The notes below the pieces were generated by a model. It saw nothing but the letters and a program-made list of their open reading frames with translations, searched no databases and had not been told where the DNA came from. From Alistipes sp. (GTDB lineage Bacteria; Bacteroidota; Bacteroidia; Bacteroidales; Rikenellaceae), in assembly GCA_017398555.1 (NCBI GenBank), contig JAFQFV010000008.1, forward strand, positions 59,385-123,384: a DNA stretch of 64,000 nt. The letters are read 5' to 3'. The position numbers were made by a program, and so were the translations under genes. Below are positions 2,306-24,137 of the stretch, in pieces (positions within the stretch are counted from its first letter, which is position 1; every line of letters starts with the position of its first letter).

Positions 2306-2438
2306 GTGTTAGAGATGGTGCATCACAAAAGAAATCCCTTTGGGATAGTAGTAAAACCTACAGCCCAAAGGGGTTTACTTTTAGGGATGTGCAGCAAATT
2401 TGCACTCTGCTTACTCTGTGCACTCATTTGTCGTCAAA
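2306..2438. repeat. Segmented-hairpin repeat, first tandem copy
   Basis: A left block GTGTTAGAGATGG...GCATC, a central hairpin and a right block form the unit. The hairpin pairs AAATCCCTTTGGG (2332-2344) with CCCAAAGGGGTTT (2364-2376) and closes around GTAG/CTAC. The right-hand 44 bases (2395-2438) recur exactly at 2559-2602. The left block recurs at about 2476. The hairpin arms do not match the second copy in sequence, only in architecture. Confidence 0.75.
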
Positions 2439-2475
2439 CATCACTTAAAGTGACGACCGTTTTGTTGTCAAAGCG

Positions 2476-2602
2476 TGTTAGAGATGGCGCATCGTGAAAT
2501 ATCCCCGGATGGGACATACTCGACGTATTTCCCATTCGGGGATATGAGGGATGTGCTACAAATTTGCACTCTGCTTACTCTGTGCACTCATTTGTCGTCA
2601 AA
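2476..2602. repeat. Segmented-hairpin repeat, second tandem copy
   Basis: The copy has the same flanks as the unit at 2306 but different arms. ATATCCCC pairs with GGGGATAT, GATGGG with CCCATT, and CATAC with GTAT, with a C-T mismatch between the GGGA and ATAC blocks. The outer GCGCATC pairs with GATGTGC. The arms are close to those of the copy at 15405, so this copy resembles a distant member more than its tandem neighbour. Confidence 0.75.
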
Positions 2603-2714
2603 AGGTAGTAGTAGCAACGCTCGGCGAAATTGAACACGATGGGCTGTACAAGACGTACTGCCCATTGTGGGCATATTTCGTTAGCGGAAGCTAATGCTGC
2701 CTTTTCACGGCAAA
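2591..2714. repeat. Segmented-hairpin repeat with TTTGTCGTCAAAAGG ends
   Basis: The outer arms TTTGTCGTCAAAAGGTAG (2591-2608) and CTGCCTTTTCACGGCAAA (2697-2714) pair except for one retained C-C mismatch and G-T wobbles. Inside, CGCT/AGCG, CGAAAT/ATTTCG and ATGGGC/GCCCAT pair in turn, ending in GTAC-AAGAC-GTAC with a T-T mismatch beside it. It overlaps the end of the previous repeat and stops just before the end of the acyl-CoA synthetase gene. Confidence 0.8.
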
Positions 2715-2726
2715 TGCACAACAGAA

Positions 2727-4367
2727 CTAATCTTTCTTTTTGCCTCGTCCATCATACAAGAACCTACGAATCTTCTTCGACGGAGTCTTTACGAACTCTT
2801 CCTCCTCCTCGACTACCTCGGTGATGCGGGAGTTACGATTTACCTTGGAGTTAATCCACTGCTTGATGTCATCCATAACCTCATCGCGGACCTTTGCCCA
2901 CTCCTCCTTCTTCTCCTCGAAGTCATCTACCAGCTCCTCATAACGAGCCTTAATGGCATCCATATCGAAGTTCACGAGCGCTACCAGATGGCCCTCATGC
3001 TCGGTAACGAGTGACTCGCTGATAAATACGTGCTGGTTAAGTACGCTCTCGATATCCTCAGGATAGATATTCTCACCACTTGGGCCAAGAATCATATTCT
3101 TCAGTCGGCCCTTGATGTAGAGCCAGCCATCCTTATCGAAGCAAGCCAGGTCGCCTGTACGGAACCAACCATCCTCGGTAAATACAGCCTTTGTAGCCTC
3201 CTCATTCTTATAGTAACCAATCATCTGGCTTGGGCTCTTAACGACCAACTCGCCGATACCCTCCTCATTAGGGTTCTCGATACGGCCCTGAACGCCCTGC
3301 AACAGTGGGCCTGTAGAGCCGAGGCGCAACATACCATCAACAGCACCTGCAAGCAGCGGAGCGGTCTCGGTAAGGCCATAACCGATGTCGTAGATAAACT
3401 TTGCATCGAGCAGGAACTGCTCCACCTTTGAATCGAGCTTTGCGCCACCGATACCAAAGAAACGAACACGACCACCGAAGGTCTTTGTCAGCTTCTTACC
3501 TGCCATACGGTGCAACATCTTACGGATAAAGCCAACGCCATAGAGGGCACGCATAAATGCAGAAGATGTAAACTTCTTAAGCACTGCGCCACGGTATATC
3601 TTCTCAATAATCAGCGGCACGGTAAGCATAATTGTCGGGCGAACCTCCTTAAGTGCCGGCAGAAGGATAGATACGGTCGGAGCCTTATCCAGATATACCA
3701 CATGGCAACCGTGCGAAAAGGCGAGAATAAGGCCGATTGTACACTCGTATGTATGCGCAAGTGGCAGTACAGAGAGGAAGATATCCTCCGGATAGACCAT
3801 AAAGAGCTTATCAATCATCTCCAACTGCGAGCAGAGGTTGTAGTGGGTAAGCATAACGCCCTTTGGCTGCGAAGTGGTACCTGATGTGTAGATAATAGCT
3901 GCAAGATCATCCGGCTGCGGAATACGGGTAGTACCTGCGCCACCCTTAACATTCTGAGCAATGATACCCAGGTTCTTTGTACGAATAACGATATTAAGCT
4001 TATCGGCTGTCTTCTTTGCCAACTTCGAGAAGAGGCGGTCAGAGACGAAAAGCGCCTTAGACTCAGAATGTTCTACGATACGGTCAATATCCTCAGATGT
4101 AAAATCGGGCATAATAGGCACAACTACATAGCCCGCAGATGTAATTGCGAAGTATGCAACGCCCCAATTTGGAACACTGCTACTCAAAATAGCAACACGA
4201 TCGCCGGGATGTATATCGGCATCAGCCAACATCTCATGAATCTGCTTTACTCTCTCTCCAACCTCACTATAGGTCACCTCGGCTCCTCTCCACAAAGAGA
4301 AGGCTGTACGGTTTGAAAAACTCTTCAAACTCTGATGAAGTGCCTCATACAATGTCTTCACACTCAT
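2727..4367 (-). CDS. AMP-dependent acyl-CoA synthetase (long-chain fatty acid CoA ligase type)
   Basis: The 546-residue enzyme activates a fatty acid with ATP and loads it onto CoA. The AMP-binding motif IYTSGTTSQPKGVMLTH is at about residue 160. The A8-type hinge WFRTGDLACFDKDGWLYIKGR and the C-terminal lysine region (KTPSKKIRRF) are present. The length and layout fit the FadD/FAA class. The chain-length preference cannot be read. It is transcribed alone, divergently from queG, with a predicted hairpin at the very 5' end of its mRNA. Repeats crowd its 3' end. Confidence 0.9.
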   Translation of the reverse strand: MSVKTLYEALHQSLKSFSNRTAFSLWRGAEVTYSEVGERVKQIHEMLADADIHPGDRVAILSSSVPNWGVAYFAITSAGYVVVPIMPDFTSEDIDRIVEHSESKALFVSDRLFSKLAKKTADKLNIVIRTKNLGIIAQNVKGGAGTTRIPQPDDLAAIIYTSGTTSQPKGVMLTHYNLCSQLEMIDKLFMVYPEDIFLSVLPLAHTYECTIGLILAFSHGCHVVYLDKAPTVSILLPALKEVRPTIMLTVPLIIEKIYRGAVLKKFTSSAFMRALYGVGFIRKMLHRMAGKKLTKTFGGRVRFFGIGGAKLDSKVEQFLLDAKFIYDIGYGLTETAPLLAGAVDGMLRLGSTGPLLQGVQGRIENPNEEGIGELVVKSPSQMIGYYKNEEATKAVFTEDGWFRTGDLACFDKDGWLYIKGRLKNMILGPSGENIYPEDIESVLNQHVFISESLVTEHEGHLVALVNFDMDAIKARYEELVDDFEEKKEEWAKVRDEVMDDIKQWINSKVNRNSRITEVVEEEEEFVKTPSKKIRRFLYDGRGKKKD

Positions 4368-4395
4368 TTTCTAAATATTTAATTTACACGCAGTT

Positions 4396-4454
4396 AAGAG
4401 TGTTATCTTATTGTTTATCAATAAATTAAAAGTACACTCTTCTTTGCAAATTTA
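4396..4454 (-). promoter_or_regulatory. Acyl-CoA synthetase promoter and 5'-terminal mRNA hairpin
   Basis: Reading the minus strand, TAAATTTG (4454-4447) is a good -7 element; no clear -33 element is seen. Transcription should begin near 4441. That is exactly where the inverted repeat AAGAGTGT (4396-4403) / ACACTCTT (4434-4441) begins, with a second nested stem TTATTG/CAATAA inside. The mRNA would therefore start with its own 5' end paired, a structure that often protects transcripts. Confidence 0.5.
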
Positions 4455-4476
4455 CTATTTTTTACGTAAAAAATAC

Positions 4477-4484
4477 TATTTTTG
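4477..4484 (+). promoter_or_regulatory. queG -7 promoter element
   Basis: TATTTTTG matches TAnnTTTG and lies 17 bases upstream of the queG ATG. No convincing -33 element is found at the usual distance, so the call is moderate. Confidence 0.45.
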
Positions 4485-4501
4485 TAGAAAATTTTATACC
4501 A

Positions 4502-5410
4502 ATGCTCAATTCTGACCTCATAAAAGCTACAGCAAGTGCTATCGGTTTCGATATGTGCGGTGTTGTTCGATGCCAAAAATTCGCTGCCGAGGGAGAGTTT
4601 CTCAAGCAGTGGATTGCAGATGGCAAAGTGTCGAATTTGAGCTATCTACAGCGAAATATAGATAAGCGTACTGATGCCACCCTGCTTGTCGAGGGGGCAA
4701 AATCGGTTATTGTTTGTGGTGTGTCGTACAAAAACAGATATTCGGAGGGTTACAAAGATTGCAACCAGAAGATAGCCTCGTATGCCCTTACCACAGACTA
4801 CCACATAACCATCAAACAGATGTTGCAGCAGCTCTGCGCCACCCTCAAGAAGGGGTGTCCGACACTTTCGGGGCGTATATTTACCGACTCTGCGCCTGTA
4901 TTTGAGAAGCGATATGCCGTCGAGGCGGGGTTGGGTTGGATTGGTCGTCAGTCACTACTTGTAACGCCCCAATTTGGCACCTTTGTACTGCTTGGCGTGG
5001 CGATTATAAGCGAGGAGTGCGACCGCTACGACTCTCCACTGCAGGGGGTGGGATGTGGCGAGTGTCGTCGTTGTGTGGAGGCTTGCCCGAATGGTGCCAT
5101 CGTCGAGCGCCATATAGATACCCGTCGCTGCATATCCCGCGCGACAATCGAAAGGCAGAGTGATGACAACACCCCTCTCCACGGCTGGATATTCGGCTGC
5201 GATGAGTGCCAAAGTTGCTGCCCGTACAACCGTCGCGCAGCAGCAGCGACAAATCCACGCTTTACCCCGACATTTGACCCAATTGCGATAGATTGGAATA
5301 AAATAGACGAAGCAGAGTTTTCACTCCGCTTCGCCAATACACCTCTCTCTCGTTCATCGCTTGAGAGGATTTTATCCAATATAGACACTACAACCCAAAT
5401 GGATAAATAG
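4502..5410 (+). CDS. queG: Epoxyqueuosine reductase QueG
   Basis: QueG performs the last step of queuosine synthesis, reducing epoxyqueuosine to queuosine in tRNA, using cobalamin and two [4Fe-4S] clusters. The ferredoxin-like clusters are visible: C185-x2-C188-x2-C191-x3-C195 (CGECRRCVEACP) and C233-x2-C236-x2-C239 with C240. The conserved TDSAPVFEKRYA segment is at about residue 125. The 302-residue length is short compared with the 310-380 of many homologues, since the C-terminal HEAT-like extension is reduced. It is transcribed alone, divergently from the acyl-CoA synthetase gene. Confidence 0.92.
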   Translation: MLNSDLIKATASAIGFDMCGVVRCQKFAAEGEFLKQWIADGKVSNLSYLQRNIDKRTDATLLVEGAKSVIVCGVSYKNRYSEGYKDCNQKIASYALTTDYHITIKQMLQQLCATLKKGCPTLSGRIFTDSAPVFEKRYAVEAGLGWIGRQSLLVTPQFGTFVLLGVAIISEECDRYDSPLQGVGCGECRRCVEACPNGAIVERHIDTRRCISRATIERQSDDNTPLHGWIFGCDECQSCCPYNRRAAAATNPRFTPTFDPIAIDWNKIDEAEFSLRFANTPLSRSSLERILSNIDTTTQMDK

Positions 5411-5413
5411 ATG

Positions 5414-5489
5414 TGTTAGTTCAAGGCTTGCGACGTGCGAAAAACCACAGCATACTGTACGTATGTGAGGATTTTGAGCACAAGCATAA
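5414..5489. repeat. Segmented-hairpin repeat between queG and rfbB
   Basis: The paired blocks GTTA/TAAC, GCTTG/AAGC, GTGC/GCAC, AAAA/TTTT and CATAC/GTATG surround the loop TGTAC, separated by internal loops of a few bases. The block GCATAC...GTATGTGAGGAT resembles the copy at 12796. It lies between two convergent genes, where it could also help terminate transcription. Confidence 0.65.
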
Positions 5490-5504
5490 CGCAGAAATAA
5501 CCTT

Positions 5505-6641
5505 TTATTTATTCATTTGATACATCTCCTCGTAATACTTTTCATACTCCCCCGAAGTAATATTATCCATCCACTCCTGATTGTCGAGATACCAACGAAC
5601 AGTCTTCTCGATACCCTCCTCAAACTGCAGTGAAGGCTCCCAACCAAGCTCCTTCTGAAGTTTTGTAGAGTCGATAGCGTAGCGCAAATCGTGACCTGCG
5701 CGGTCGGTAACATAGGTGATAAGCTCCTCGCTTGAGCCCTCAGGGTTGCCCAGCAGGCGATCGACAGTCTTAATCATCACCTTGATAAGGTCGATATTCT
5801 TCCACTCGTTAAAACCACCGATATTGTAGGTCTCGGCAATCTTTCCGTTGTGGAAAATCATATCAATAGCGCGTGCGTGGTCCTCAACATAGAGCCAATC
5901 GCGAACATTCTCACCCTTACCATATACAGGCAGCGGTTTGCGGTGGCGTATATTATTGATAAAGAGCGGGATAAGTTTCTCCGGGAACTGATATGGACCA
6001 TAGTTATTCGAGCAGTTTGTAACGATAGTCGGCATACCGTAAGTGTCGTGATATGCGCGTACAAAGTGGTCTGAAGAGGCCTTTGCTGCCGAATATGGCG
6101 AGTGCGGATTATACTTTGTAGTCTCGTAGAAGAACTCTGTACCATACGCCAAGTGGTGCTCACTTGAAGAGGCTGTAGTGGTAAATGGAGGCTCGATACC
6201 CTCAGGGTGTGTCATCTCAAGCGCACCATAGACCTCATCGGTTGAGATGTGATAGAAACGCTTACCCTCATACCTCTCAGGCAGGCTCTCCCAATAGAGT
6301 TTTGCAGCTTGCAGAAGGCTCAGCGTACCCATAACATTGGTGCGGGCGAAGGTAAACGGATCCTTTATAGAGCGGTCTACATGACTCTCGGCTGCCAGGT
6401 GGATAATACCATCAACCTTCTCATCCTGCATCAGTTTGTAAAACGCCTCGAAGTCGCAGATATCCATCTTAACGAACTTATAGTTCGGTCTATCCTCAAT
6501 ATCCTTCAAATTGGCGAGGTTACCCGCGTATGTCAATTTATCGAGATTGATGATGTTATACTCCGGATATTTATTGACAAAAAGACGCACTACATGGCTG
6601 CCAATAAAACCGGCACCGCCTGTGATAACGATGTTTTTCAT
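5505..6641 (-). CDS. rfbB: dTDP-glucose 4,6-dehydratase
   Basis: This is the second enzyme of dTDP-L-rhamnose synthesis: it oxidises and dehydrates dTDP-glucose to dTDP-4-keto-6-deoxyglucose. It is a 378-residue short-chain dehydrogenase with the Rossmann motif GGAGFIGSH at residues 8-16, the STDEVYG segment with the catalytic Asp-Glu pair, and YSAAK as the catalytic Tyr-x3-Lys. A serine- and histidine-containing insertion of about 25 residues before YSAAK lengthens it compared with the approximately 350 residues of enterobacterial homologues. It is the last gene of a five-gene operon and starts 2 bases after the rfbD stop. Confidence 0.95.
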   Translation of the reverse strand: MKNIVITGGAGFIGSHVVRLFVNKYPEYNIINLDKLTYAGNLANLKDIEDRPNYKFVKMDICDFEAFYKLMQDEKVDGIIHLAAESHVDRSIKDPFTFARTNVMGTLSLLQAAKLYWESLPERYEGKRFYHISTDEVYGALEMTHPEGIEPPFTTTASSSEHHLAYGTEFFYETTKYNPHSPYSAAKASSDHFVRAYHDTYGMPTIVTNCSNNYGPYQFPEKLIPLFINNIRHRKPLPVYGKGENVRDWLYVEDHARAIDMIFHNGKIAETYNIGGFNEWKNIDLIKVMIKTVDRLLGNPEGSSEELITYVTDRAGHDLRYAIDSTKLQKELGWEPSLQFEEGIEKTVRWYLDNQEWMDNITSGEYEKYYEEMYQMNK

Positions 6642-6643
6642 AA

Positions 6644-7513
6644 CTATTTTTGCTGTTTTAATCTGTTAATACAATGAATCATAGAGTCGCGCCAATGCGG
6701 AATCTCGACATCGAAAGTTCGCTTTACCTTTGTCTTATCAAGGACAGAGTATGGCGGACGGGTAACCTTTGACGGGAACTCGTCGGAGTGGCAAGGGTTT
6801 ATTCTGCACGCAGTATGGCCTGCTGCTGCGGCAATCTCGGTTGCAAAGTCGTACCAACTGCACACACCCTCATTCGAGAAGTGGTAGATACCCTCATTGC
6901 CCTCGTATGTATCATACTCTATAATAGAGAAGATAAGCACCGCCAAATCACCTGCGTATGTCGGTGTACCCACCTGGTCGAAGACTACATTCAGTGCAGG
7001 GCGCTCGGCAGTAAGGCGCAACATTGTCTTGAGGAAGTTGTTACCAAACTCCGAATAGAGCCACGCGGTGCGGAAAATCAGAGCCTTGCAGCCACTTGCA
7101 GCTATAGCCTGCTCGCCATGCAGTTTAGTAACGCCATAGACGCCCAACGGAGCGGTCGGCATATCCTCCGTGCGAGGGGTATTGCCATCTGTTCCAAAGA
7201 CGTAGTCGGTCGAGACGTGGATAAGTGTGCCATCTACAGCCTTAACAGCCTCGGCAAGGTTTGCCACCGCTGTAGCGTTAATCAGTTCGGCTGTCGCCTG
7301 ATCATCCTCAGCCTTATCGACATTGGTATAGGCTGCGCAATTTACAATAATATCTACCTTATTGGCTGCAACAAACTGAGCTACAGCACCCTTATCGGTA
7401 ATATCGAGCTCGGCAACATCGGTAAAGATATAGTTGTTGGGAGATACCGAGCCCAAGCGGCGCATCTGGCTACCAAGTTGTCCGTTTGCGCCTGTTACAA
7501 GAACATTTTTCAT
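6644..7513 (-). CDS. rfbD: dTDP-4-dehydrorhamnose reductase
   Basis: The enzyme reduces dTDP-4-keto-rhamnose to dTDP-L-rhamnose with NAD(P)H, the last step of the pathway. I take the start at 7513 (MKNVLVTGANGQLGSQ), giving 289 residues. A longer reading from 7564 adds 17 residues that overlap rfbC and lie before the Rossmann motif. GANGQLG is the nucleotide-binding loop, STDYVFG and YGVTKLHGE give the catalytic Ser/Thr and Tyr-x3-Lys. The start is 1 base after the rfbC stop, so translation is probably coupled. Confidence 0.94.
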   Translation of the reverse strand: MKNVLVTGANGQLGSQMRRLGSVSPNNYIFTDVAELDITDKGAVAQFVAANKVDIIVNCAAYTNVDKAEDDQATAELINATAVANLAEAVKAVDGTLIHVSTDYVFGTDGNTPRTEDMPTAPLGVYGVTKLHGEQAIAASGCKALIFRTAWLYSEFGNNFLKTMLRLTAERPALNVVFDQVGTPTYAGDLAVLIFSIIEYDTYEGNEGIYHFSNEGVCSWYDFATEIAAAAGHTACRINPCHSDEFPSKVTRPPYSVLDKTKVKRTFDVEIPHWRDSMIHCINRLKQQK

Positions 7514-7514
7514 C

Positions 7515-8096
7515 TTATTCAAACTCCGGATAGAGATTTTCGTTATAATCAAATGGAGAGTCAAAATCCTTCAAACAGAGGTGTTTCAAATCCTTCTCCG
7601 AGAGCAGTGCGCTCTCTGTCGGAATCTGCCAATCTATGCCAAGGCTCTCATCCTTAATGCTGATACCACCATCGGCTTCAGGGGCATAGAAGTTGTCGCA
7701 CTTGTATTGAAATACCGCCGTCTCGCTCAACACAGCAAAGCCGTGAGCAAAGCCACGCGGAACGAAGAACTGTCGGTGGTTATCCTCCGTCAGCTCTACT
7801 GCCACATGCTTACCATAGGTTGGCGAACCCTTGCGAATATCGACCGCAACATCGAGCACACGACCCTTCACGCAGCGCACCAACTTACTCTGACTATATG
7901 GCGGACGCTGGAAGTGCAGACCGCGCATAACGCCATAGCTCGACATACTCTCATTATCCTGCACAAAGTTCACCTTGCGCACCTTCTGCTCGAACTCTCG
8001 CTGCGAGAAGCTCTCAAAGAAGTAACCGCGGGCATCTTTGAACACCTTCGGCTCGATAATCACCAAGCCCTCAATATCTGTCTTTATTACCTCCAT
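7515..8096 (-). CDS. rfbC: dTDP-4-dehydrorhamnose 3,5-epimerase
   Basis: This 193-residue cupin epimerises carbons 3 and 5 of dTDP-4-keto-6-deoxyglucose. Family marks are DARGYFFESF at about 20, FVQDNESMSSYGVMRGLHFQ with the catalytic His, and FVPRGFAHGFAVLS. The length is typical. The start is 2 bases from the rfbA stop and the stop is 1 base from the rfbD start. The gene order ugd-rfbA-rfbC-rfbD-rfbB places it mid-operon. Confidence 0.95.
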   Translation of the reverse strand: MEVIKTDIEGLVIIEPKVFKDARGYFFESFSQREFEQKVRKVNFVQDNESMSSYGVMRGLHFQRPPYSQSKLVRCVKGRVLDVAVDIRKGSPTYGKHVAVELTEDNHRQFFVPRGFAHGFAVLSETAVFQYKCDNFYAPEADGGISIKDESLGIDWQIPTESALLSEKDLKHLCLKDFDSPFDYNENLYPEFE

Positions 8097-8098
8097 TA

Positions 8099-9004
8099 TT
8101 ACTCAAGATTGGGTTTTCCGGTCTCCTTCAGCTCATCAATAACCTTCAGCAGATACTGACCATACTGGTTCTTCAACATCGGCTGTGCAAGCTCGCGCAT
8201 ACGCTCCTCTGTAATCCAGCCCTGACGATAGGCAATACCCTCAAGGCAAGCCACCTTAAGTCCCTGACGCTTCTCAAGTACCTCGATATATGTCGAAGCC
8301 TCGGAGAGTGAGTCGTGAGTACCTGTATCGAGCCAAGCAAAGCCACGACCGAGGGTCTGAACCTTCAGCTCGCCATCTGCCAAAAACTCCTGATTGACCG
8401 TTGTAATCTCATACTCGCCACGTGCCGATGGTTTGATATTTCTCGCCACCTCAACAACCTTATTCGGATAGAAGTAAAGACCTACAACAGCGTAGTTTGA
8501 CTTCGGATTTGCAGGTTTCTCCTCGATAGAGAGGCAGTTACCCGCATTATCAAACTCCGCCACGCCATAGCGCTCCGGGTCATTCACCCAGTAACCAAAA
8601 ACGGTCGCCTTCTGCTCCTGCTCGGCGGTACGAACGGCCTCTTTGAGCATCTTTGTAAAACCGGCACCATGGAAGATATTGTCGCCAAGAACAAGGCACG
8701 CGCTATCATCACCAATAAAGTCGGCACCGATAGTAAATGCCTGTGCCAAACCATCCGGCGAAGGCTGCTCGGCATACTCAAAATGAACGCCATAGTCGCT
8801 ACCATCGCCAAGTAATCTCTTAAAGCCCGGCAGATCGTACGGTGTCGAGATAATAAGGATATCTCTGATACCTGCCAGCATCAATACCGAGATTGGATAG
8901 TAAACCATCGGCTTGTCATAAATAGGCATCAACTGCTTTGAAATTCCCTTGGTGATAGGATAGAGGCGTGTTCCGCTGCCTCCTGCCAATACAATACCTT
9001 TCAT
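8099..9004 (-). CDS. rfbA: Glucose-1-phosphate thymidylyltransferase
   Basis: The enzyme makes dTDP-glucose from dTTP and glucose-1-phosphate, the first committed step to dTDP-rhamnose. The 301-residue protein opens with [18 protein letters not shown], the nucleotidyl-transferase signature, and has the sugar- and metal-binding segments [20 protein letters not shown] and [10 protein letters not shown]. The length is normal for RmlA. It follows ugd after 24 bases in the same operon. Confidence 0.96.
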
Positions 9005-9028
9005 AGTTATCTGTTTATAATAGTTATT

Positions 9029-10261: not shown

Positions 10262-10306
10262 AATAGTTTACATCTACTTATCTGCACAATATCGCACAAT
10301 ATTATG

Positions 10307-10337
10307 CAAATATAACAAATTATATATTGAGTTGCAA
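10307..10337 (-). promoter_or_regulatory. Promoter of the ugd-rfbACDB operon
   Basis: On the minus strand TTG (10337-10335), a 20-bp spacer and TATATTTG (10314-10307) match the Bacteroidota consensus. The leader to the ugd start is about 40 bases. Confidence 0.75.
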
Positions 10338-10353
10338 CGTTACACGACATTTT

Positions 10354-12578: not shown

Positions 12579-12609
12579 TTTGGCTGTTGGCTATTGGTTT
12601 TATAGAGGT

Positions 12610-12624
12610 GTCGGCAGAGCCGAC
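12610..12624. repeat. Small hairpin after groES
   Basis: GTCGGC-AGA-GCCGAC forms a perfect 6-bp stem with a three-base loop, 31 bases after the groES stop. It has no T-tract, so it is more likely an mRNA processing or stability element than a terminator. Confidence 0.45.
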
Positions 12625-12668
12625 TTATATAAATCCGCAGAATAGCCAAAAGCAAAAAAAACAACCCC

Positions 12669-12780
12669 GTTTTGATTTTAGATAAAAAGGTCGAGGCGAT
12701 GGGACATACTAAGGGGTATTTCCCATTGACGAGAACAAGGTAGCGGCAGTAAAAACCGCATAAAATCGAAACCAAAATTA
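12669..12780. repeat. Segmented-hairpin repeat, groES-groEL copy A
   Basis: The ends GTTTTGATTTTA (12669-12680) and TAAAATCGAAAC (12761-12772) are inverted with one wobble. The apex is GATGGGACATAC-TAAGGG-GTATTTCCCATTG with the same C-T mismatch as the copies at 2476 and 38092. The ends are shared with copy B, which follows 15 bases later. Confidence 0.75.
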
Positions 12781-12795
12781 GAAAGACAAACACAC

Positions 12796-12923
12796 GTTTT
12801 GATTTTAGGTGGAGTTTTACAACGCTCTCGCAGACAATTAAACCTCAGCATACAAGAGTTATGTGAGGATTTAATTGGCAAGAGGAAGGAGGTAAAAACC
12901 GCATAAAATCGAAACCAAAATTA
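12796..12923. repeat. Segmented-hairpin repeat, groES-groEL copy B
   Basis: The ends match copy A: GTTTTGATTTTAG on the left and a right end identical over about 30 bases (AAAAACCGCATAAAATCGAA...). The interior is different: AATTAAA pairs with TTTAATT, CCTCA with TGAGG, and CATA with TATG around AAGAGT. The unit ends 15 bases before the groEL ATG, so a long hairpin would sit beside the groEL ribosome binding region. Confidence 0.75.
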
Positions 12924-12932
12924 AAGAGATAA

Positions 12933-14566
<1,634 letters not shown>

Positions 14567-15371: not shown

Positions 15372-15404
15372 ATTCAGGTTGCACACCGCTCAATCTGTGC
15401 ACCG

Positions 15405-15528
15405 TTTTATCGTCAAAAGGTAGTAGTAGGTGCATATCGTGAAATATCCCCAGATGGGCTGTACTTGGGGTACTGCTCATTTGGGGATATGAGGGATGTG
15501 CAGCTAATGCTGCCTTTTCACGATAAAA
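15405..15528. repeat. Segmented-hairpin repeat before the rimP promoter
   Basis: The outer arms TTTTATCGTCAAAAGGTAG (15405-15423) and CTGCCTTTTCACGATAAAA (15510-15528) pair over 19 positions with a C-C mismatch. Inner blocks AATATCCCCA/TGGGGATAT, ATGGGC/GCTCAT and GTAC/GTAC close the apex with a T-T mismatch. It is the cleanest member of the family. The gap between the lipoprotein and rimP otherwise contains only the rimP promoter and leader. Confidence 0.85.
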
Positions 15529-15550
15529 CACTAATATTTCTTACGAAATA

Positions 15551-15582: not shown

Positions 15583-15598
15583 TGGTGTGAAGGAGTGA

Positions 15599-15626: not shown

Positions 15627-15680
15627 TGCCCGTGCGGCAAGAATTTGACAGAGATAAAGTAAGAGAAAATTTATAACGAT

Positions 15681-16145: not shown

Positions 16146-16163
16146 TATAAAAAACAGACAACA

Positions 16164-17405: not shown

Positions 17406-17483
17406 TCCGTTCCCCAGAATCCGGTTACGAGATTTTCGTAACAAGCAAAACAAGTGTTAAATAAAAAAAAGGAAAAATATATA

Positions 17484-20132
17484 ATGGAGAACGAAACAAA
17501 GAAATTACGCCTTATTCAAGTAGCAAAGGAGTTCAAGGTTGGTCTTAACACCGTAACCGACTTCTTGCGCAAGAAGGGTGTAGCTATCGACGGCTCGCCC
17601 AACACACAGATTAGCGGAGATATCTATGCTATGGTAGAGAAGGAGTTCGGTGCAAACCGTGCTGCTGCCTCTGCGCGTGACAATATCCGCGAGAAGATTG
17701 CAACAAAGCAGGCTACAGTATCTATCGAGGAGCCTAAAGCCGAGCCAAAGCGCACTATCGAGATTAAGGACGAGGTACAGCAGCCTCGCATCCTGGGTCG
17801 TGTAGAGCTCGACAAGAAGGGTAATATCGTAAAGCCACAGCCTAAACCTGAGCCAAAGCCGGAACCAAAACCACAGCCTAAACCGGAGGTAAAGCCGGAG
17901 CCTAAACCACAGCCAAAGGCTGAGCCTGTAGCTGTTGAGGCGAAGGATAATGGCGCATTCCGCGCTACCGCTACCCCAACTCTGAGCGGCCCTCAGATTT
18001 TGGGTAAGATGGATGTATCAGGCATGGTACCGGGTGGCAAGCGTCGTAAGAAGATTGACAAGGAGAAGGTCGATATCACTCGTCAGCAGCCTCAGCAGGG
18101 CGGCAGCAAGAAGAATCGTGCCGACTTCAAGCAGAATAACAACAATAACAACCAGCAGAATCAGCAGCAGGGTGGCGGCAAGAAGAACAAGCACAACAAG
18201 CCACAGCCAAAGCCTGTAGTTCGTCCGGAGGTATCTGACGAGGAGGTTTCAAAGCAGGTAAAGGATACCCTTGCTCGTCTGACTGCAAAGGGTGCCAAGA
18301 ATAAGGGTGCCAAGTATCGTAAGGAGAAGCGCGAGGAGGTTCGTGAGAAGATGAACGAGGCTGTAGAGCGCGAGGAGAAGGAGCGCAAGGTGCTCAAGGT
18401 TACAGAGTTTGTAACCGTGAGTGAGCTTGCAACAATGATGAATGTATCTCCGATGGAGGTTATCTCAGCTTGTATGAACCTCGGCCTTATGGTATCTATC
18501 AACCAGCGTCTGGATGCCGAGGCACTTGTCGTAGTGGCAGAGGAGTTCGGATTTACTACCGAGTTCGTATCTGTTGAGATTCAGGAGGCTATTGGCGATG
18601 ATGAGGTTGATGAGGCAGAGGATTTGCTCCCACGTCCACCGATTGTAACCGTTATGGGTCACGTTGACCACGGTAAGACATCACTTCTCGACAACATCCG
18701 TAAGACCAACGTTATCGCAGGTGAGGCGGGTGGTATCACCCAGCACATCGGTGCATACTCTGTTGAGCTGAATGGTCAGAAGATTACCTTCCTCGACACC
18801 CCTGGTCACGAGGCATTTACAGCGATGCGTGCCCGTGGTGCGAAGATTACCGACGTTGCTATTATCATCGTTGCAGCTGATGACAGCGTGATGCCACAGA
18901 CTATCGAGGCTATCAACCACGCACAGGCTGCAGGTGTACCTATGGTATTTGCAATCAACAAGATTGATAAGCCTGCTGCAAACGTTGAGCGCATCAAGGA
19001 GCAGCTTGCGAATATGAACTACCTGGTTGAGGATTGGGGCGGTAAGTACCAGAGCCAGGATGTATCTGCAAAGCAGGGTCTGAACCTCGACAAACTCCTT
19101 GAGAAGGTGCTTCTTGAGGCTGAGCTTCTCGACTTGAAGGCTAATCCTAACAAGCGTGCCAAGGGTGCCGTTATCGAATCAACGCTCGACAAGGGTCGTG
19201 GTTATGTAGCGACCGTGCTTGTTCAGGATGGTACACTGCGAATTGGTGATGTTGTCCTCTCAGGTACATACACAGGCCGTGTTAAGGCAATGTTTGACGA
19301 GAATGGTAAGAAGGTTACCGAGGCGGGACCTGCAACACCTGTACAGTTGCTCGGTCTGAATGGTGCTCCACAGGCGGGTGATTCATTCAATGTTATGGAG
19401 GATGACCGTTCGGCTCGTGAGGTGGCCAATAAGCGTGAGCAGTTGCAGCGTATGCAGGGTCTGATGACTCAGAAGCACGTAACTCTCGACGAGATTGGCC
19501 GTCGTATCGCTATCGGCTCGTTCAAGGAGCTCAATATCATCGTTAAGGGTGATGTGGATGGCTCTGTAGAGGCTATGTCAGGCTCACTGATTAAGCTCTC
19601 AAAGGAGAGTGTTCAGGTAAATGTTATCCACTCGGCTGTAGGTCAGATTTCAGAGAGCGATGTACTGCTGGCTACTGCATCAAATGCCATTATCGTCGGC
19701 TTCCAGGTGCGTCCATCAGCTGCTGCTCGCCGTCTGGCTGAGAAGGAGGAGATTGAGATTCGTCTCTACTCTATCATCTACGACGCTATCAATGAGATTA
19801 AGGATGCTATCGAGGGTATGCTCGAGCCTGTGATGAAGGAGGAGATTGTCTGCTCTGTCGAGGTACTTGAGACCTTCAAGATTTCAAAGGTTGGTACTAT
19901 CGCCGGTGGTATTGTCCGCGAGGGTAAGATTCAGCGCAACACCCCTATCCGCGTAATCCGTGACGGTATCGTTATCCACACAGGCCGTCTGGGCTCGCTC
20001 AAGCGTTTCAAGGATGATGTTAAGGAGGTACTGACAGGCCACGACTGCGGTCTGAACATCGAGTCTTACAACGATATCAAGATTGGCGATATCATCGAGG
20101 GCTACGAGCAGGTAGAAGTAAAGAGAAAGTAA
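17484..20132 (+). CDS. infB: Translation initiation factor IF-2
   Basis: IF-2 places initiator tRNA on the 30S subunit and hydrolyses GTP at subunit joining. The start at 17484 ([17 protein letters not shown]) gives 882 residues; a start 30 bases upstream would add a basic decapeptide and is less likely. The N-terminal domain is followed by a tandem proline-lysine tract of PKPEP/PKPQP units (about residues 115-150), a Gln/Asn-rich and basic linker, the G domain with [12 protein letters not shown] (near 394), DTPGHE and NKID, and domains II-IV. The PKPEP tract is encoded by near-perfect 6-base repeats, so its length may vary between strains. Confidence 0.96.
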
Positions 20133-20164
20133 TTTTTAACCTATAACTCAAATAATTTAGAGCT

Positions 20165-21475
20165 ATGATTAAGTTTGTAACAGCAGAAGAGGCTGTAAAG
20201 GTAATCAAGTCAGGTGATCACATTCACCTCAGTTCAGTTGCATCAGCACCACAGTGTCTGATTAAGGCTATGTGCGACAGAGGTCGCAATGGCGAGCTTA
20301 AGGATGTACACATCCACCACCTCCACACTGAGGGTCCTGCGCCATACGCAGATCCTGAGTTCGAGGGCGTATTCCAGCTCGACTCATTCTTCGTGGGTGG
20401 TAATGTACGTAAGGTAACCCAGAGCGGTTATGCTGACTACATTCCAATCTTCTTGAGCGAGACACAGAAGCTCTATCGTAGTGGCGCAGTGCCTTGTAAT
20501 GTAGCTATGATTCAGGTATCTACACCTGACAAGCACGGCTATGTATCTCTCGGTACATCTGTAGATGCTACTCTTGCAGCTGTTGAGTGCGCAGAGCACG
20601 TTATTGCAGTTGTAAATAAGTACGTTCCTCGTGCATTCGGTGACGCGATGATTCACTGCTCACAGATCGAGTTCTTCGTAGAGGACGATCAGCCACTTGA
20701 GGAGGCTCACTTCGCAGCTCCAAATGAGGTTGAGACTAAGATTGGTAACCTCTGTGCAGGTCTTATCGAGGATGGTGCAACTCTTCAGATGGGTATCGGT
20801 GCTATTCCTAACGCAGTGCTCGCACAGCTCGGAAACCACAAGAACCTCGGTGTTCATACCGAGATGTTCGCTGACGGCGTACTCCCACTCGTTGAGAAGG
20901 GCGTAATCAACGGCGCAGCTAAGAATATCGATAAGGGTAAGATGGTATCTACATTCCTTATGGGTTCACAGAAGGTTTATGACTTTATCGACGACAACCC
21001 AGGCGTACTGATGATGGACGTAGGTTACACTAACGACCCATTTATTATATCAAAGAACGACAAGGTTACCGCTATCAACTCTGCTCTTCAGGTAGATATC
21101 ACAGGTCAGGTTTGCGCAGACTCTCTCGGCCGTAAGTTCTACTCAGGCGTAGGTGGTCAGGTGGACTTCATCTATGGTGCATCACTCTCTAAGGGTGGTA
21201 AGGCTATTATCGCAATGCCATCTATTACAAATAAGGGTGTATCAAAGATCTCTGACGTTCTTACCGAGGGTGCAGGTGTTGTTACAACCCGTAACCACAT
21301 CCACTGGTTCGTTACTGAGAATGGTGCTGTAGATCTCTATGGCAAGAGCCTGCAGGAGCGTGCTCGCCTTATCATCTCTGTTGCTCACCCATCAGCACAG
21401 GAGGCTCTCGATGAGGCTGCATTCAACCGCTATGGAAGCCATCACCATTATATTAAGGGCTACATGTCGAAGTAA
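20165..21475 (+). CDS. Acetyl-CoA hydrolase/transferase family CoA-transferase
   Basis: The 436-residue protein belongs to the class I CoA-transferases of the 4-hydroxybutyrate/butyryl-CoA:acetate type. The catalytic Glu is in GVHTEMFADG (about residue 238), the oxyanion loop in GVGGQVDFIYGA. Such enzymes swap CoA between acetate and another acid in fermentation. Butyrate, 4-hydroxybutyrate, propionate or succinate are possible partners and sequence reading alone does not separate them. The protein is shorter than Cat1/ScpC succinate transferases (about 500 residues). It follows infB by 32 bases but a functional link is not obvious. A terminator follows. Confidence 0.85.
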   Translation: MIKFVTAEEAVKVIKSGDHIHLSSVASAPQCLIKAMCDRGRNGELKDVHIHHLHTEGPAPYADPEFEGVFQLDSFFVGGNVRKVTQSGYADYIPIFLSETQKLYRSGAVPCNVAMIQVSTPDKHGYVSLGTSVDATLAAVECAEHVIAVVNKYVPRAFGDAMIHCSQIEFFVEDDQPLEEAHFAAPNEVETKIGNLCAGLIEDGATLQMGIGAIPNAVLAQLGNHKNLGVHTEMFADGVLPLVEKGVINGAAKNIDKGKMVSTFLMGSQKVYDFIDDNPGVLMMDVGYTNDPFIISKNDKVTAINSALQVDITGQVCADSLGRKFYSGVGGQVDFIYGASLSKGGKAIIAMPSITNKGVSKISDVLTEGAGVVTTRNHIHWFVTENGAVDLYGKSLQERARLIISVAHPSAQEALDEAAFNRYGSHHHYIKGYMSK

Positions 21476-21503
21476 TCGAATTACCGAGACTTATCTTATG
21501 TGC

Positions 21504-21536
21504 AAAGCCTTCCCACTTGGGAGGGCTTTCTTTTTT
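21504..21536 (+). terminator. Terminator after the CoA-transferase
   Basis: AAAGCCTTCCCA pairs with TGGGAGGGCTTT (one T-G wobble) and is followed by CTTTTTT. Confidence 0.85.
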
Positions 21537-21588
21537 AACCCTTAATATAGTGGTGGTGTGACTAAAGCCACCACCCCCCCCTCATATC

Positions 21589-21640
21589 TACATTCCCTCC
21601 AAACCTCCCTTTGGAAAAGGGAGGCTTTGCTACGCAGTAC
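21589..21640. repeat. Dispersed repeat, CCTCCAAACCTCCCTTT family (compact copy)
   Basis: TACATTCCCTCCAAACCTCC, the same left end as the copy at 31858, is followed by a short perfect hairpin CCTCCCTTT-GGA-AAAGGGAGG and then CTTTGCTACGC. The long copy has the same two ends but about 80 extra bases where this one has GGA. A separate hairpin GGTGG...CCACC lies just upstream (about 21550-21576). Confidence 0.7.
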
Positions 21641-21670
21641 ATTTTTGAACAAATGACCGCACCAAATATG

Positions 21671-21702
21671 TTTGTTCGTTCGGAAATAATTTTTTAACTT
21701 TG
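21671..21702 (+). promoter_or_regulatory. Promoter of the LRR lipoprotein pseudogene
   Basis: TTTG (21671-21674), a 20-bp spacer and TAACTTTG (21695-21702) match the Bacteroidota consensus, 38 bases before the ATG. Confidence 0.78.
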
Positions 21703-21740
21703 TAAAAGTAAGTCATATCACTAATATTAATTTTCGTTTT

Positions 21741-22487
21741 ATGAAAAAGATTCTTTTTATATTGATGCTTATTACATCCTGCATTTGTTTAAGTTGCAAT
21801 AATTCAAACCGTGAAATAATATATAGTTATGTAAATGGTTATGGAGATGCACACCTTACATTAGGCAATGTTGGTGGTTGGGGTGCAGAGGTCAAATCTC
21901 ACGAGTACAAAAATGGAATAGGCAAAATTACATTTAAAAGCACAATTACGAGCATCCCAGAATTTGCATTTATTAACAGTACAATACTAAAGAGTATAAC
22001 AATTCCAAATAGTGTTACTAAAATTGAAAATGAAGCATTCAGAAGATGTGAGAATTTGGAAAGTATAACAATCCCAAATAATGTTACTAAAATTGGAGAT
22101 GGAACATTCAGTGAATGCAAAAGTTTGAAAAATATAAATATTCCAAATAGCGTTACTGAAATTGGTAACAATACTTATAGTTATTGCAGAGATCTGGAAA
22201 GTGTAACTATTCCAGATACTGTAACTAGAATTGGAGATGAAGCATTCTAAATTTGCAAAAACTTAAGCAAAGTGTATTGCAATGCGACAACACCGCCAAA
22301 TATAGGCGAGAAAGTGTTCTCATATTACGAATATATTTATGATTATAAGTCTTTTTATTCAAAGCCCCACACTAAATTGAGAAATATAAAGTGTAAAATT
22401 TATGTACCAACTGCATCGGTAAACTCTTACAAGACTGCAAATGGTTGGAGTAATTACTCTAATAATATAATTGGTTACGACTTTTAG
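21741..22487 (+). pseudogene. BspA-like leucine-rich-repeat lipoprotein interrupted by a stop codon
   Basis: The frame encodes a lipoprotein (MKKILFILMLITSCICLSCNN, lipobox near Cys 19) followed by BspA-type repeats of about 23 residues, with units such as LKSITIPNSVTKIENEAFRR and LESITIPNNVTKIGDGTFSE. A TAA at 22248-22250 ends it after 169 residues inside a repeat. The same frame then continues without a break for 78 residues (ICKNLSKVYCNATTPPNIGE..., ending in a canonical NGWSNYSNNIIGYDF tail) to the stop at 22485-22487. A single change, for example TCA to TAA, explains the break. The promoter is intact. Family members are surface-anchored adhesion-type proteins. The gene is markedly more AT-rich than its neighbours. 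Confidence 0.85.
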
Positions 22488-22570
22488 TTACACATTAGAG
22501 TACTATCCTTCCGGGAGCCTTTGTTGCTTTTAATATAATCTGTAAAGAATGAATATCCGCATTGCAAACA

Positions 22571-22599
22571 AAAAAAAGCACCTTTTCAGGTGCTTTTTT
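22571..22599. terminator. Bidirectional terminator
   Basis: AAAAAAAGCACC pairs with GGTGCTTTTTT around TTTTCA. It serves the converging LRR pseudogene and the minus-strand gene that ends at 22598. Confidence 0.88.
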
Positions 22600-22966
22600 A
22601 TATCTCAAAGTCGTAGCGGCCGTCGTCATCGGCGGGTTGGTTTTGCCAGTAGAGGTCGATAAGGTTGTCGAAGATGGCGCGTTGGGCGTCGTTTAGTTCG
22701 ACATTTGTGGTTGCCACCTCATAGAGAAGGTCTTTTGCCCAGTCGAACTCCTCCTCGTCGAGGTTTGCTACGATAATGGCAGCGGTCTCGAAGTCGATAA
22801 GGTCTGACATTGCCTGAACGCTCTCGATTCTATCTTCAGAGACAAAGCGAGCAAGGCCATATATAAGTTTATGCGCAGCTGCCGCATTTTGCGGATTATC
22901 GCTATTGGAAATAAGCTGAATTCCCAGTTTGAGAATTGCGCTAAAGTCGCGTTGTGCAAATTTCAT
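22598..22966 (-). CDS. Small acidic helical protein of unknown function
   Basis: The protein (122 residues from the ATG at 22966) is predicted to be almost wholly α-helical and acidic, with segments such as QRDFSAILKLGIQLISN and LIDFETAAIIVANLDEEEF and no membrane segment or signal peptide. I do not recognise the family. Its ATG follows the stop of the TerB-like gene after one base (TAG-T-ATG), so it is translationally coupled to it and probably acts with it. A TTG nine bases further upstream is an unlikely alternative start. Confidence 0.7.
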   Translation of the reverse strand: MKFAQRDFSAILKLGIQLISNSDNPQNAAAAHKLIYGLARFVSEDRIESVQAMSDLIDFETAAIIVANLDEEEFDWAKDLLYEVATTNVELNDAQRAIFDNLIDLYWQNQPADDDGRYDFEI

Positions 22967-22967
22967 A

Positions 22968-23756
22968 CTATTCAAGTCTTAAAAGGTTACCAACAGTGGC
23001 ATTTATCTCGATATATGCGTTCTCAATAAGCGCTGCCGAGGTAAAGCCCATAAGTTTATATCCATTATCGCTCTCAAGTGCAAAGACGATATTACCCAAA
23101 ATCTCGTGGCCCGAGCCATAGAGGAGTGTTCCGGTCATATTATCGCCAAGGCCATCCTTCTTGTAGCCCTCTCTATCAACAAGGAAGACAAGGTGGCAAT
23201 CCACAAGGCCCAACTGCTTTGAGAGTGTATTGAGCGGAGCTGTAAAGCGGACAATCTCAGTACGCTCTGCGCCAATATGCTCGGCAATATCGGCATCAAG
23301 CTCCTGCCAGCTCTCGGCCGTGCTCTGGAAAGGATATGCAAGGCCATTTGTCTTTGCAGCGATGAATGTCGGAGCGATAACATCGTCAGAGTTATCCACC
23401 AACGGAGTAGCAGGCGCCGGTAGTCCGCAGAGGTTGCGCACACCGTTGAACATTACCATCTTCTTATCCGAAATCTGCTCATCTGCACGAACAATATCTG
23501 CGTAGATATTGACTAACCTCTTCTTAACATCTACATCCAACGACTTTACCAACTCTACAGACCTCTCCATAGTAAGGTTTTTATTGTTGTTAGCACAATC
23601 AACAACCTTCATCATTGCCTCGTTGGTAAAACCATTTATACCACCGTAAAATTTCTCAAGAGGAGCAACATACTCAGGCTTCAACTCGCCATCTGCCATA
23701 ACGATAGCCATACCGACGTTATATATAGCCGCAAGAGTCTCAATGGTAACTTTCAT
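22968..23756 (-). CDS. TerB-like domain protein
   Basis: The 262-residue protein has an N-terminal helical domain (about 1-120) with features of the TerB/DjlA fold: AIYNVGMAIVMADGELKPEY, a second helical half with ADIVRADEQISDKKMVMFN. The C-terminal half (about 150-262) is a β-rich domain ending YIEINATVGNLLRLE that I do not recognise. TerB domains bind metal and occur in stress and phage-resistance gene sets, but this pair has no other ter genes beside it. It is cytoplasmic and expressed from its own promoter with the small downstream gene. Confidence 0.65.
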   Translation of the reverse strand: MKVTIETLAAIYNVGMAIVMADGELKPEYVAPLEKFYGGINGFTNEAMMKVVDCANNNKNLTMERSVELVKSLDVDVKKRLVNIYADIVRADEQISDKKMVMFNGVRNLCGLPAPATPLVDNSDDVIAPTFIAAKTNGLAYPFQSTAESWQELDADIAEHIGAERTEIVRFTAPLNTLSKQLGLVDCHLVFLVDREGYKKDGLGDNMTGTLLYGSGHEILGNIVFALESDNGYKLMGFTSAALIENAYIEINATVGNLLRLE

Positions 23757-23793
23757 AATGTACTTGATTTAGATTAGTAGTTGGTATTCTATA

Positions 23794-23826
23794 CAAATAT
23801 ACGAATATTTTATGAATAGGTTGCAA
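23794..23826 (-). promoter_or_regulatory. Promoter of the TerB-like operon
   Basis: On the minus strand TTG (23826-23824), a 22-bp spacer and TATATTTG (23801-23794) lie 38 bases before the start codon. The spacer is slightly long. Confidence 0.6.
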
Positions 23827-23867
23827 TTTTATGGATATTTTTGCAAGCATTAAGGTCACACCAACCA

Positions 23868-23975
23868 TTTTGTTGTCAAAATGCGGTAGTTAATCCATCT
23901 TAAAGATGGATTTTCCTCCTCGCAGTTCGGCATAGTCGGCAAGCAGCCTCTGCCCTCACGAGCAGCGTCGGTCGG
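23868..23975. repeat. Composite repeat: TTTTGTTGTCAAAA end plus CCTCC-family interior
   Basis: The left edge TTTTGTTGTCAAAATGCGGT is the end typical of the segmented hairpins. It runs straight into a segment (about 23890-23972) nearly identical to 31880-31960 of the other repeat family, including CCTCCTCGCAGTTCGGCATA. The two repeat families are thus fused or nested here. Confidence 0.65.
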
Positions 23976-24037
23976 TGTGCATCACGTAAAATGCCCGACG
24001 ATGGATAATTAAAGAGATGGCTAGTTTTGGCGTCAGA

Positions 24038-24137
24038 GCGGGGCAGATACTCCGCTCGGCATATAAAACAACAAAGGGCTGTACTAAAACGTACTGCCCT
24101 TTGTTGTTTATATGTGTTAGCGGAGATAGGTGCCCCA
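24038..24137. repeat. Segmented-hairpin repeat with the longest apical stem
   Basis: The paired blocks, from outside in, are GGGGCA/TGCCCC, CCGCT/AGCGG and CATATAAA/TTTATATG, then CAACAAAGGGC/GCCCTTTGTTG, a T-T mismatch and GTAC/GTAC around TAAAAC. The apical arm of 13 bp (24067-24079 with 24096-24108) is perfect. The downstream edge, CACGTCAAAA (24142-24151), reaches the end of the PPIase gene. Confidence 0.82.

Follow-up and report, generated by a model that had tools for sequence, protein, structure and literature searches.

An unusual set of intergenic elements lies in a 64,000-nucleotide stretch of an Alistipes sp. genome (contig JAFQFV010000008.1, hereafter the window). A first-pass annotation had described about ten of them as hairpins built from short paired blocks that keep the same mismatches. 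These loci raise the question of whether the elements are one family, which form of them is selected, and how they came to lie where they do.

A hairpin family found in one genus

We built a covariance model, R1, from 26 copies in the element's own genome, taking the structure (53 modelled pairs) from the fold of one of them. Since the window copies at 15404, 2589 and 24022 are in this alignment, they match R1 by construction; the model also matched two window copies outside it, 38092-38216 and the inner part of 2487-2556. The R1 unit is a hairpin of about 126 nt with five members in the window (2487, 2589, 15404, 24024 and 38092; Table 1). The elements at 2306, 12669 and 12796 are relatives of this family; 12669 has the R1 apex and shares its outer arms (a 41-nt arm, repeat D16) with 12796. 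Thus, the proposal that all ten elements belong together holds for five members and three relatives, and the elements at 5414 and 40828 represent separate hairpin repeats.

The original observation was real and proved stronger than stated, with at least 131 non-overlapping R1 matches in the own genome (2.03 Mb) and matches in 15 of the 41 genomes searched, every one in a single genus. Relatives G003, G006, G011, G017, G021 and G022 are rich in hairpins, and G001, G002, G007, G010, G013, G014, G016, G018, G019 and G023 gave no match. Note that the own copy number is a lower bound, with 150 of 953 first-look candidates scored and a genome that is 89% complete. The foreign set comprised 251 matches, of which 150 were aligned, representing 110 places and 108 distinct copies; opposite-strand duplicates and identical rows were removed before counting. 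For the first count of pairs, 7 of the 45 blastn copies were dropped. No Rfam covariance model matched the window at the gathering threshold, and the four matches at E<=1 between 2200 and 24200 were each under the gathering score. Our literature search returned no description of such a stop-codon hairpin family in an Alistipes-type gut genus.

Table 1. Hairpins and host genes in the window. Fold z-scores compare the + strand with 200 dinucleotide shuffles.
Feature	Coordinates	Strand	Evidence	Context
Related hairpin, another sub-family	2306..2400	+	blastn; z -5.7	Left member of three-hairpin array; several own-genome copies, 95-98% identity
R1-family hairpin, inner part only (model 29-98)	2487..2556	+	66.2 bits (outside R1 alignment); z -8.4 (2476-2560)	Central hairpin of the array
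R1-family hairpin	2589..2716	+	94.3 bits (in R1 alignment); RNA fold z -11.4	10 bp away from stop codon of gene 2727-4367(-)
Host gene, AMP-binding enzyme	2727..4367	-	Pfam	
Separate hairpin repeat, not R1	5410..5500	+	z -2.2 (marginal, 5/200 shuffles equal the fold at 5414); ~80% copies elsewhere	Flanked by two convergent stop codons
Sister sub-family hairpin, outer arms GTTTTGATTTTA, apex GATGGGACATAC	12669..12777	+	blastn; fold z -5.1	Between groES and groEL; hairpin of this type there too in genomes G003 and G006
Second hairpin, outer arms as in 12669..12777	12796..12925	+	z -6.5; 41-nt arm, D16	Likewise between groES and groEL
R1-family hairpin	15404..15529	+	137.5 bits (in R1 alignment); z -12.2	Upstream of rimP; genes either side on +
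R1-family hairpin, CGCTCGGC/GTTAGCGG sub-family	24024..24152	+	86.6 bits (in R1 alignment); z -13.0	Overlies stop codon of gene 24152-26176(-)
Host gene, SurA/PPIC-type protein	24152..26176	-	Pfam	Orthologues both with and without hairpin
R1-family hairpin	38092..38216	+	122.6 bits (outside R1 alignment); z -12.3	Overlies stop codon of gene 38216-38623(-)
Host gene, weak CoxG match	38216..38623	-	Pfam 19.5 bits, below cut-off 22.2	
Separate strong hairpin, apical motif absent	40815..40930	+	z -8.7; one weak own-genome match (70%)	Relatives in G044 (94%) and G045 (91%) at different gene borders, not syntenic with the window

Shape and mismatches are conserved while the letters change

The four window copies at 2589, 15404, 24024 and 38092 fold much better than their shuffles (z -11.4 to -13.0), and the stem is paired to a sharp border at either end. 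An outer C-C mismatch had been reported as fixed. Of 74 own and 100 foreign copies, 69 and 79 could be anchored (5 and 21 could not), and the mismatch is retained in 68 and 72 of these, respectively. The position next but one to it carries A-T or G-A in 67/69 own and 76/79 foreign copies. At the apex, where C-T or T-T had been proposed, the opposition is C-T in 24 and T-T in 12 of the 43 own copies (out of 74) that the search expression matched; the other seven differ (A-G 4, T-C 2, G-T 1), and Watson-Crick pairs never occur. The aligned sequences also have an internal loop with GA steps on each arm.

The arms differ between copies and still pair, as claimed: two-sided changes occur at 27 of the 53 pairs, 92.4% of cells are paired versus 81.3% after shuffling, and none of 500 shuffles was as good; structures slid along the alignment reached 38-52%. 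The outermost pair changes with the final stop-codon base (A with TTA in 13/15 cases, G with CTA in 6/6). Copies elsewhere in the own genome and in relatives, searched with the covariance model as had been suggested, keep both pairing and mismatches. The folded shape and its mismatches are therefore conserved while the letters of R1 change, and the covariation, the kept C-C and the wobble asymmetry described below support R1 as a selected structure with retained mismatches.

Strand asymmetry

Wobble pairs were counted in columns with at least 50% Watson-Crick pairs. G-T outnumbered A-C by 315 to 47 in the foreign copies and by 70 to 13 in the own copies. The structured strand is the better RNA fold in 103 of the 108 foreign copies, and the DNA fold favours it in the four window copies tested (at 15404..15529, -39.2 vs -26.1 kcal/mol for the opposite strand). 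Judging from these substitutions, only one R1 strand is the structured form. A symmetrical DNA cruciform, one of the forms put forward earlier, was rejected as the selected form because tolerance of wobble pairs is confined to one strand.

Stop-codon position and replication polarity

The polarity count covered 67 own copies in fetched stretches, forming 53 groups, of which the 14 with low skew were left out. In 37 of the 39 clear-skew groups, including 9 of the 10 that do not adjoin a host stop codon, the structured strand is the one rich in C and hence the leading-strand template. Among gene ends followed by 50 bp or more, a hairpin is present at 25/75 on the leading strand versus 1/36 on the lagging strand. 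GC skew, gene direction and the host rule are partly confounded.

Of the 108 foreign copies, 8 have no right-hand gene and were left out; in 89 of the remaining 100 that gene runs on the opposite strand. The offset of the hairpin from the opposite-strand gene is exactly -2 in 27 of these 89 cases and between -15 and +11 in 67. An R1 hairpin usually starts at the stop codon of a leading-strand gene. Stop-codon position, replication polarity and the module swaps described below had escaped the first-pass annotation.

Copying, module exchange and the search for a mover

Since own pairs that are 96-99% identical have unrelated right flanks, the hairpin itself is the unit of copying. The apex and the outer stem are sometimes swapped as modules, with the joint at the internal loop. 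One arm only is common to 12 own pairs, showing that linear recombination or deletion takes place as well. In several species hairpins lie at the identical stop codon of each of two host genes, which fits old resident structures too.

The link to a REP-type (Y1) transposase suggested earlier found no backing: Y1_Tnp (PF01797) matched none of the 41 genus genomes, including the own one, and the control matched in 6 of 14 genomes; a RAYT/IS200 origin was accordingly rejected. The proposed tyrosine recombinase fared no better. No integron integrase (TIGR02249) was over the cut-off in the 41 genomes, all of which have tyrosine-recombinase matches under it, and an integron was rejected on this ground; since the control genomes also stayed under the cut-off, the negative rests on the curated score. 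A third tyrosine recombinase of the own genome (C29) has its closest relatives in hairpin-rich G003 (62%) and G006 (57%). As a mover it is not supported, since it does not follow copy number and has no relative in G022, which has 59 hairpin matches.

The own genome and hairpin-rich G011 lack reverse transcriptase (RVT_1, PF00078); hairpin-rich G003 and G006 have it, as do hairpin-free G002, G007 and G014 (the search did not take in G017, G021 and G022). This distribution does not follow the hairpins, and the reverse transcriptase route was rejected. The search for IS91-type Y2_Tnp gave no match, but its control was silent and nothing follows from it. Viral contigs gave no match to the one exact apex pattern used, nor did plasmids and phages in blastn with one hairpin copy.

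What the hairpins may be

One way to read the wobble asymmetry is that an antisense transcript of the host gene's end carries the structured strand and works as an RNA hairpin, for example an insulator, a small RNA or an RNase target, with the G-U pairs as the trace of selection on RNA. We consider this combined proposal rather unlikely. It would account for the tolerance of G-T and not of A-C and would fit the GA steps on both arms of the internal loop; moreover, when neighbours are merged irrespective of strand, convergent genes flank 22 of 52 own groups, so that a left-hand transcript could read through. However, in 16 of the 52 both neighbouring genes run in the direction opposite to the structured strand, so that the element would need its own promoter; the left flank is only moderately conserved, and the polarity of the copies without a host gene is left unexplained. 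Selection of terminators or mRNA caps at gene ends, homogenised by ectopic recombination with no dedicated mover, is also unlikely. At the SurA-like gene, the 3' end is readable in 24 hairpin-free genus orthologues, 20 of which have a terminator called 41-65 nt after the stop, and the five hairpin-bearing genes (the own one and four others, 80-82% identity) have none, bar one call inside the hairpin; foreign copies moreover have a T-rich stretch behind the stem in the coding direction in 43/108 cases vs 20/108 in the other. In the own copies such stretches (6 of 8 T) are seen in 2/26 in the coding direction versus 1/26 in the other, however, and only 8 of 24 hairpin-free orthologues of the AMP-binding gene have a called terminator. 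The coding-strand fold is the weaker one, and lagging-strand genes also need terminators yet lack hairpins. Note that the terminator caller also calls some hairpin apices, and its 10/35 for hairpin genes is left out. With support at one gene, but weak at the second gene and in the own copies, intrinsic termination was rejected as a full account.

R1 could also be a miniature inverted-repeat element belonging to a DDE transposase, in which case its terminal repeats, long and imperfect, would differ at fixed positions and thereby give the mismatches. Its sharp borders and its outer ends, conserved in sequence and different at fixed positions, agree with this, but the inner arms vary while keeping pairing with strand-specific wobble, and no target-site duplication is evident on inspection of the flanks, so that we regard it as very unlikely. 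Hardly probable at all is pairing without selection, by hairpin template switching during replication that rewrites one arm from the other: the outermost pair does track the stop codon, but the fixed C-C and G-A oppositions would not survive such rewriting, which also does not yield G-T far above A-C. Finally, we hold as doubtful a strand-specific recombination system in Alistipes in which folded strands would swap apices at the internal loop and insert at stop codons during replication through an undescribed enzyme. If true, an attC-like tag behind ordinary chromosomal genes would be a possible route for genes to gain recombination hairpins.

The explanation that we tentatively favour, at somewhat less than an even chance, is a REPIN-like repeat that folds as a single strand, with attC-like polarity and no mover enzyme found. 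Comparison shows the folded structure, its strand asymmetry and polarity, the position at stop codons, copying as a unit and new combinations of parts. R1 consists of dispersed non-coding units of about 126 nt, copied as a hairpin, whose two parts, outer stem and apical hairpin, sometimes occur in new combinations joined at the internal loop. The acting form would be one folded single strand, the complement of the preceding gene's coding strand. The unit mostly settles at stop codons of leading-strand genes, can supply the stop codon, and has the strand that folds on the leading-strand template. Little single-stranded DNA is exposed there, and by analogy with integron attC sites copies in this orientation would be those that persist. 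Folded single-stranded DNA, as used by REPIN/RAYT or attC, is therefore the most likely route of spread. A settled hairpin might conceivably also replace an intrinsic terminator in 3'-end work. Against this explanation stand the lack of a candidate enzyme and the fact that hairpin movement is inferred from comparison. Moreover, IS200/IS605-type movers use the lagging-strand template, the opposite orientation to that of the R1 hairpins, which also counts against it.

Comparison with known systems

The R1 hairpins resemble known palindromic repeats and lack the defining traits of those repeats. In a common gut genus they mark the 3' ends of genes, and their three joint regularities (one folded strand, leading-template orientation and a start at the stop codon) constrain how palindromic repeats spread and persist. 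Like ERIC/IRU and the Rickettsia palindromic elements, with which we compare them by description, they are imperfect palindromes of about 100-150 bp in one bacterial group; we know of no strand, stop-codon or replication rules for those elements. The Rickettsia elements are named in the consulted part of PMC3733652, and palindromic RNAs of Bacteroidetes are treated in passages of PMC8040213.

With the REP/REPIN group R1 has in common a high-copy hairpin outside genes that is copied as a unit (131 places). As described in parts of PMC3116915 and PMC3733652, REPINs and GTAG-REPs with RAYT are likewise high-copy, intergenic, non-coding hairpins near 3' gene ends that sometimes supply the stop codon and are copied as a unit. 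REPs, at 20-40 bp in the same excerpts, differ from R1, which is one 126-nt stem with inner parts. Unlike RAYT-mobilised REPINs, R1 occurs in genomes without Y1 transposase and, unlike REPINs, shows replication polarity and mostly single-orientation arrays. A conserved unpaired GTAG or CGTC end tag was not found in R1, where CGTC, if present, lies inside the stem. Many R1 copies do have CGTC near the 5' end of the outer stem, as do the CGTC-tagged REPs, for which the relevant passages of PMC3733652 know no dedicated transposase; in those REPs the tag is unpaired and the stem has 8-9 bp, whereas in R1 CGTC is within the 53-pair stem.

R1 is unlike attC in that its genomes have no integron integrase over the cut-off and its hairpins are not in cassette arrays; unlike attC cassettes, the host genes that we looked at are ordinary chromosomal genes. 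An attC site follows the stop codon, folds on the strand opposite the coding strand and has the core sites RYYYAAC/GTTRRRY. R1 likewise lies at the stop codon, folds opposite the coding strand and occupies the leading-strand template. According to PMC5371416, attC bottom strands are on the leading-strand template in all 10 chromosomal integrons analysed earlier, and in a larger set some chromosomal integrons, those with smaller arrays, lack this orientation. R1 is a natural setting in which to test the idea, put forward for integrons, that the lagging-strand template is kept free of folding strands.

Copy number and distribution of the hairpins

The first-pass annotation had proposed that segmented hairpins lie between the genes of this stretch, and the folding z-scores of the window copies confirm that these structures are real. 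Copies 2589, 15404, 24024 and 38092 of the R1 family (hairpins of approximately 126 nt) scored between -11.4 and -13.0 on the + strand. In its own genome (2.03 Mb, 38 contigs), copy 15404 had 59 blastn matches. A covariance model built from 26 of the genome's copies, including 15404, 2589 and 24022 from the window, gave 146 matches at E <= 0.05. Once overlaps were removed 131 were left, which is a lower bound since 150 of the 953 first-look candidates were scored; some of the weakest matches, at about 24-36 bits, may have arisen by chance.

With stricter filters and at most 85 candidates scored per genome, hairpins were found in 15 of 41 genomes (its own and 40 relatives), all of them within 25 genomes of one genus; 16 genomes from other families of the order had no match. 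A pattern scan of named genomes returned at least 80 records; the matches listed were from Alistipes sp., from Rikenellaceae and from one Bacteroidales MAG, and the ruminant hindgut was the source of many. One hairpin pattern had no match in viral contigs, one copy had none in plasmids and phages, and no Rfam family reached its gathering threshold. The features of the window are collected in the table; the GCTATTAGCC/GGCTATTGGCT-type runs look like another dispersed palindromic repeat.

Hairpins, repeats and neighbouring genes in the window
Feature	Position	Strand	Remarks
R1 hairpins	2487, 2589, 15404, 24024, 38092
AMP-binding gene	2727-4367	-
Second, unrelated hairpin repeat	5410-5500		GCATACTGTACGTATGTGAGG core; flanked by convergent stop codons; further copies at about 80% in own genome and relatives
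Two tandem hairpins	12579-12938		Same outer arms; between groES and groEL; hairpin of this type in that gap also in relatives G003 and G006, absent from G045
GCTATTAGCC/GGCTATTGGCT-type repeat runs	12579-12660		Also at locus L268 of G003; in gene gaps of several species
69-nt repeat	21993-22268		Four in tandem, partly within a small open reading frame
72-nt repeat (ctcctcgcagttcggcatagtc...)	23901-23972, 31890-31961		94% identity; recurs in further gene gaps of the genome
SurA-like gene	24152-26176	-
Block inverted in G003	38216-43039		Inversion of about 5 kb relative to window, at G003:C40, about 64.8-69.4 kb (L268)
Third hairpin repeat	40815-40930		94% and 91% relatives at different gene borders in G044 and G045

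Structure and strand

In the alignment of 26 copies, two-sided change was seen at 27 of 53 pairs, and none of 500 shuffles attained any of five pairing measures, the structure tested being that of one of these copies. Amid changing pairs, the outer C-C opposition was near-invariant (68/69 own and 72/79 foreign anchored copies), and the next-but-one position inward was A-T or G-A in 67/69 and 76/79, respectively. The stem has a sharp end. Where a stop codon lies at its border, the outermost pair varies with the last base of that codon (TTA-A in 13/15, CTA-G in 6/6).

In columns where Watson-Crick pairs made up 50% or more, G-T cells outnumbered A-C cells 315 to 47 in foreign and 70 to 13 in own copies, counting related copies many times; note that foreign rows were aligned with a model of the structured strand, the one on which the hairpin folds tolerating G-T, so their G-T count may lean towards it. 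The direction was the same at 90% columns, with few cells (23 vs 6 foreign, 8 vs 3 own). Moreover, of 108 foreign copies, 103 folded better on the structured strand (means -69.5 vs -53.6 kcal/mol). Thus, one strand is the target of selection or recognition, in the form of RNA or of single-stranded DNA.

Copying of the hairpin

Among 74 own copies, 24 equal-length pairs had an identity of 90% or more. On average, the right flanks of these pairs were unrelated (block means 0.25-0.32, one tandem pair being higher). Their left flanks were partly related, declining from 0.61 to 0.26, and several pairs showed no relationship there. So the copied unit is the hairpin, and a left leader often travels along. 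Comparison across 2,701 pairs of own copies and 5,671 pairs of foreign copies revealed 7 that had both arms in common with a different apex and 7 that had the apex but neither arm in common; in all six examined in full, the switch point was at or near the internal loop on both sides. One arm only was common to 12 own pairs; in eight of these, the copies involved are mostly a small number of chimeric or partly deleted ones. Since the two arms have to pair, finding them shared together is by itself no proof that an exchange took place in the folded state.

Position at stop codons and polarity

Read in element orientation, 42 of 52 own groups had a right-hand gene on the opposite strand, as did 89 of the 100 foreign copies with a gene on that side. 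Hairpin-to-gene distances peaked at -2 (27/89 foreign), with a further 5/89 at -12, the distance expected of a stop codon within the unit in another frame. Requiring at least 50 bp behind the gene, the hairpin was present at 25/75 leading-strand vs 1/36 lagging-strand gene ends, genes being simple longest-frame calls of which single rows may be wrong.

Copies on one contig mostly shared a direction (C34 15/15 and C26 10/10 minus; C16 12/12, C2 9/9 and C35 8/8 plus); C1, C11, C21, C23, C27 and C33 had both. In fetched stretches with a GC skew of at least 0.03, the structured strand was the C-rich one in 37 of 39 own groups, skew being partly confounded with gene direction; this held for 28/29 groups adjoining the stop codon of a host gene and 9/10 elsewhere. 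Bacterial leading strands are usually G-rich. If G-richness marks the leading strand here, the structured strand serves as the template for leading-strand synthesis. Relatives G045, G006 and G044 had the same polarity in their stretches, except for one low-scoring G006 match, and skew was near zero in 3/4 stretches of G003:C40.

The same sites in other species

An R1 hairpin lies at the stop codon of the SurA-like gene in its own species and four relatives (80-82% identity), and the arms of these five are unlike; the end is readable in 24 of the other orthologues, and in 20 of them a terminator was called at this position. Behind the AMP-binding gene, R1 hairpins were found in 4/30 cases and a hairpin not detected as R1 in two more, and 8 of the remaining 24 orthologues had a called terminator. 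The inversion in G003, a single case read by eye, has its borders at the hairpin/stop junction: the gene newly facing the hairpin terminates at a stop codon within that hairpin, whereas no hairpin stands at the stop of the gene brought to the other border. In G045, also one case read by eye, a hairpin sits between the stop codon and another hairpin, which G044 has as well.

A candidate mechanism and known systems

No Y1 transposase was found in the 41 genus genomes (its own included), no integron integrase exceeded the cut-off in the 41 genomes, and its own genome had no reverse transcriptase. We found no description of this hairpin family in searches of the open-access literature. Our analysis favours a mobile repeat that would fold as a single strand and would be retained where the foldable strand is on the leading-strand template. 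For attC sites, the recombination sites of integrons, PMC5371416 reports that bottom strands in many chromosomal integrons have the leading-strand template orientation.

Since some of the features that define REPINs (REP-derived units moved by a RAYT) and attC sites were looked for and not found, we file the family under neither. Its likeness to REPINs is that the hairpin is copied as a unit, and to attC sites, strand and polarity.
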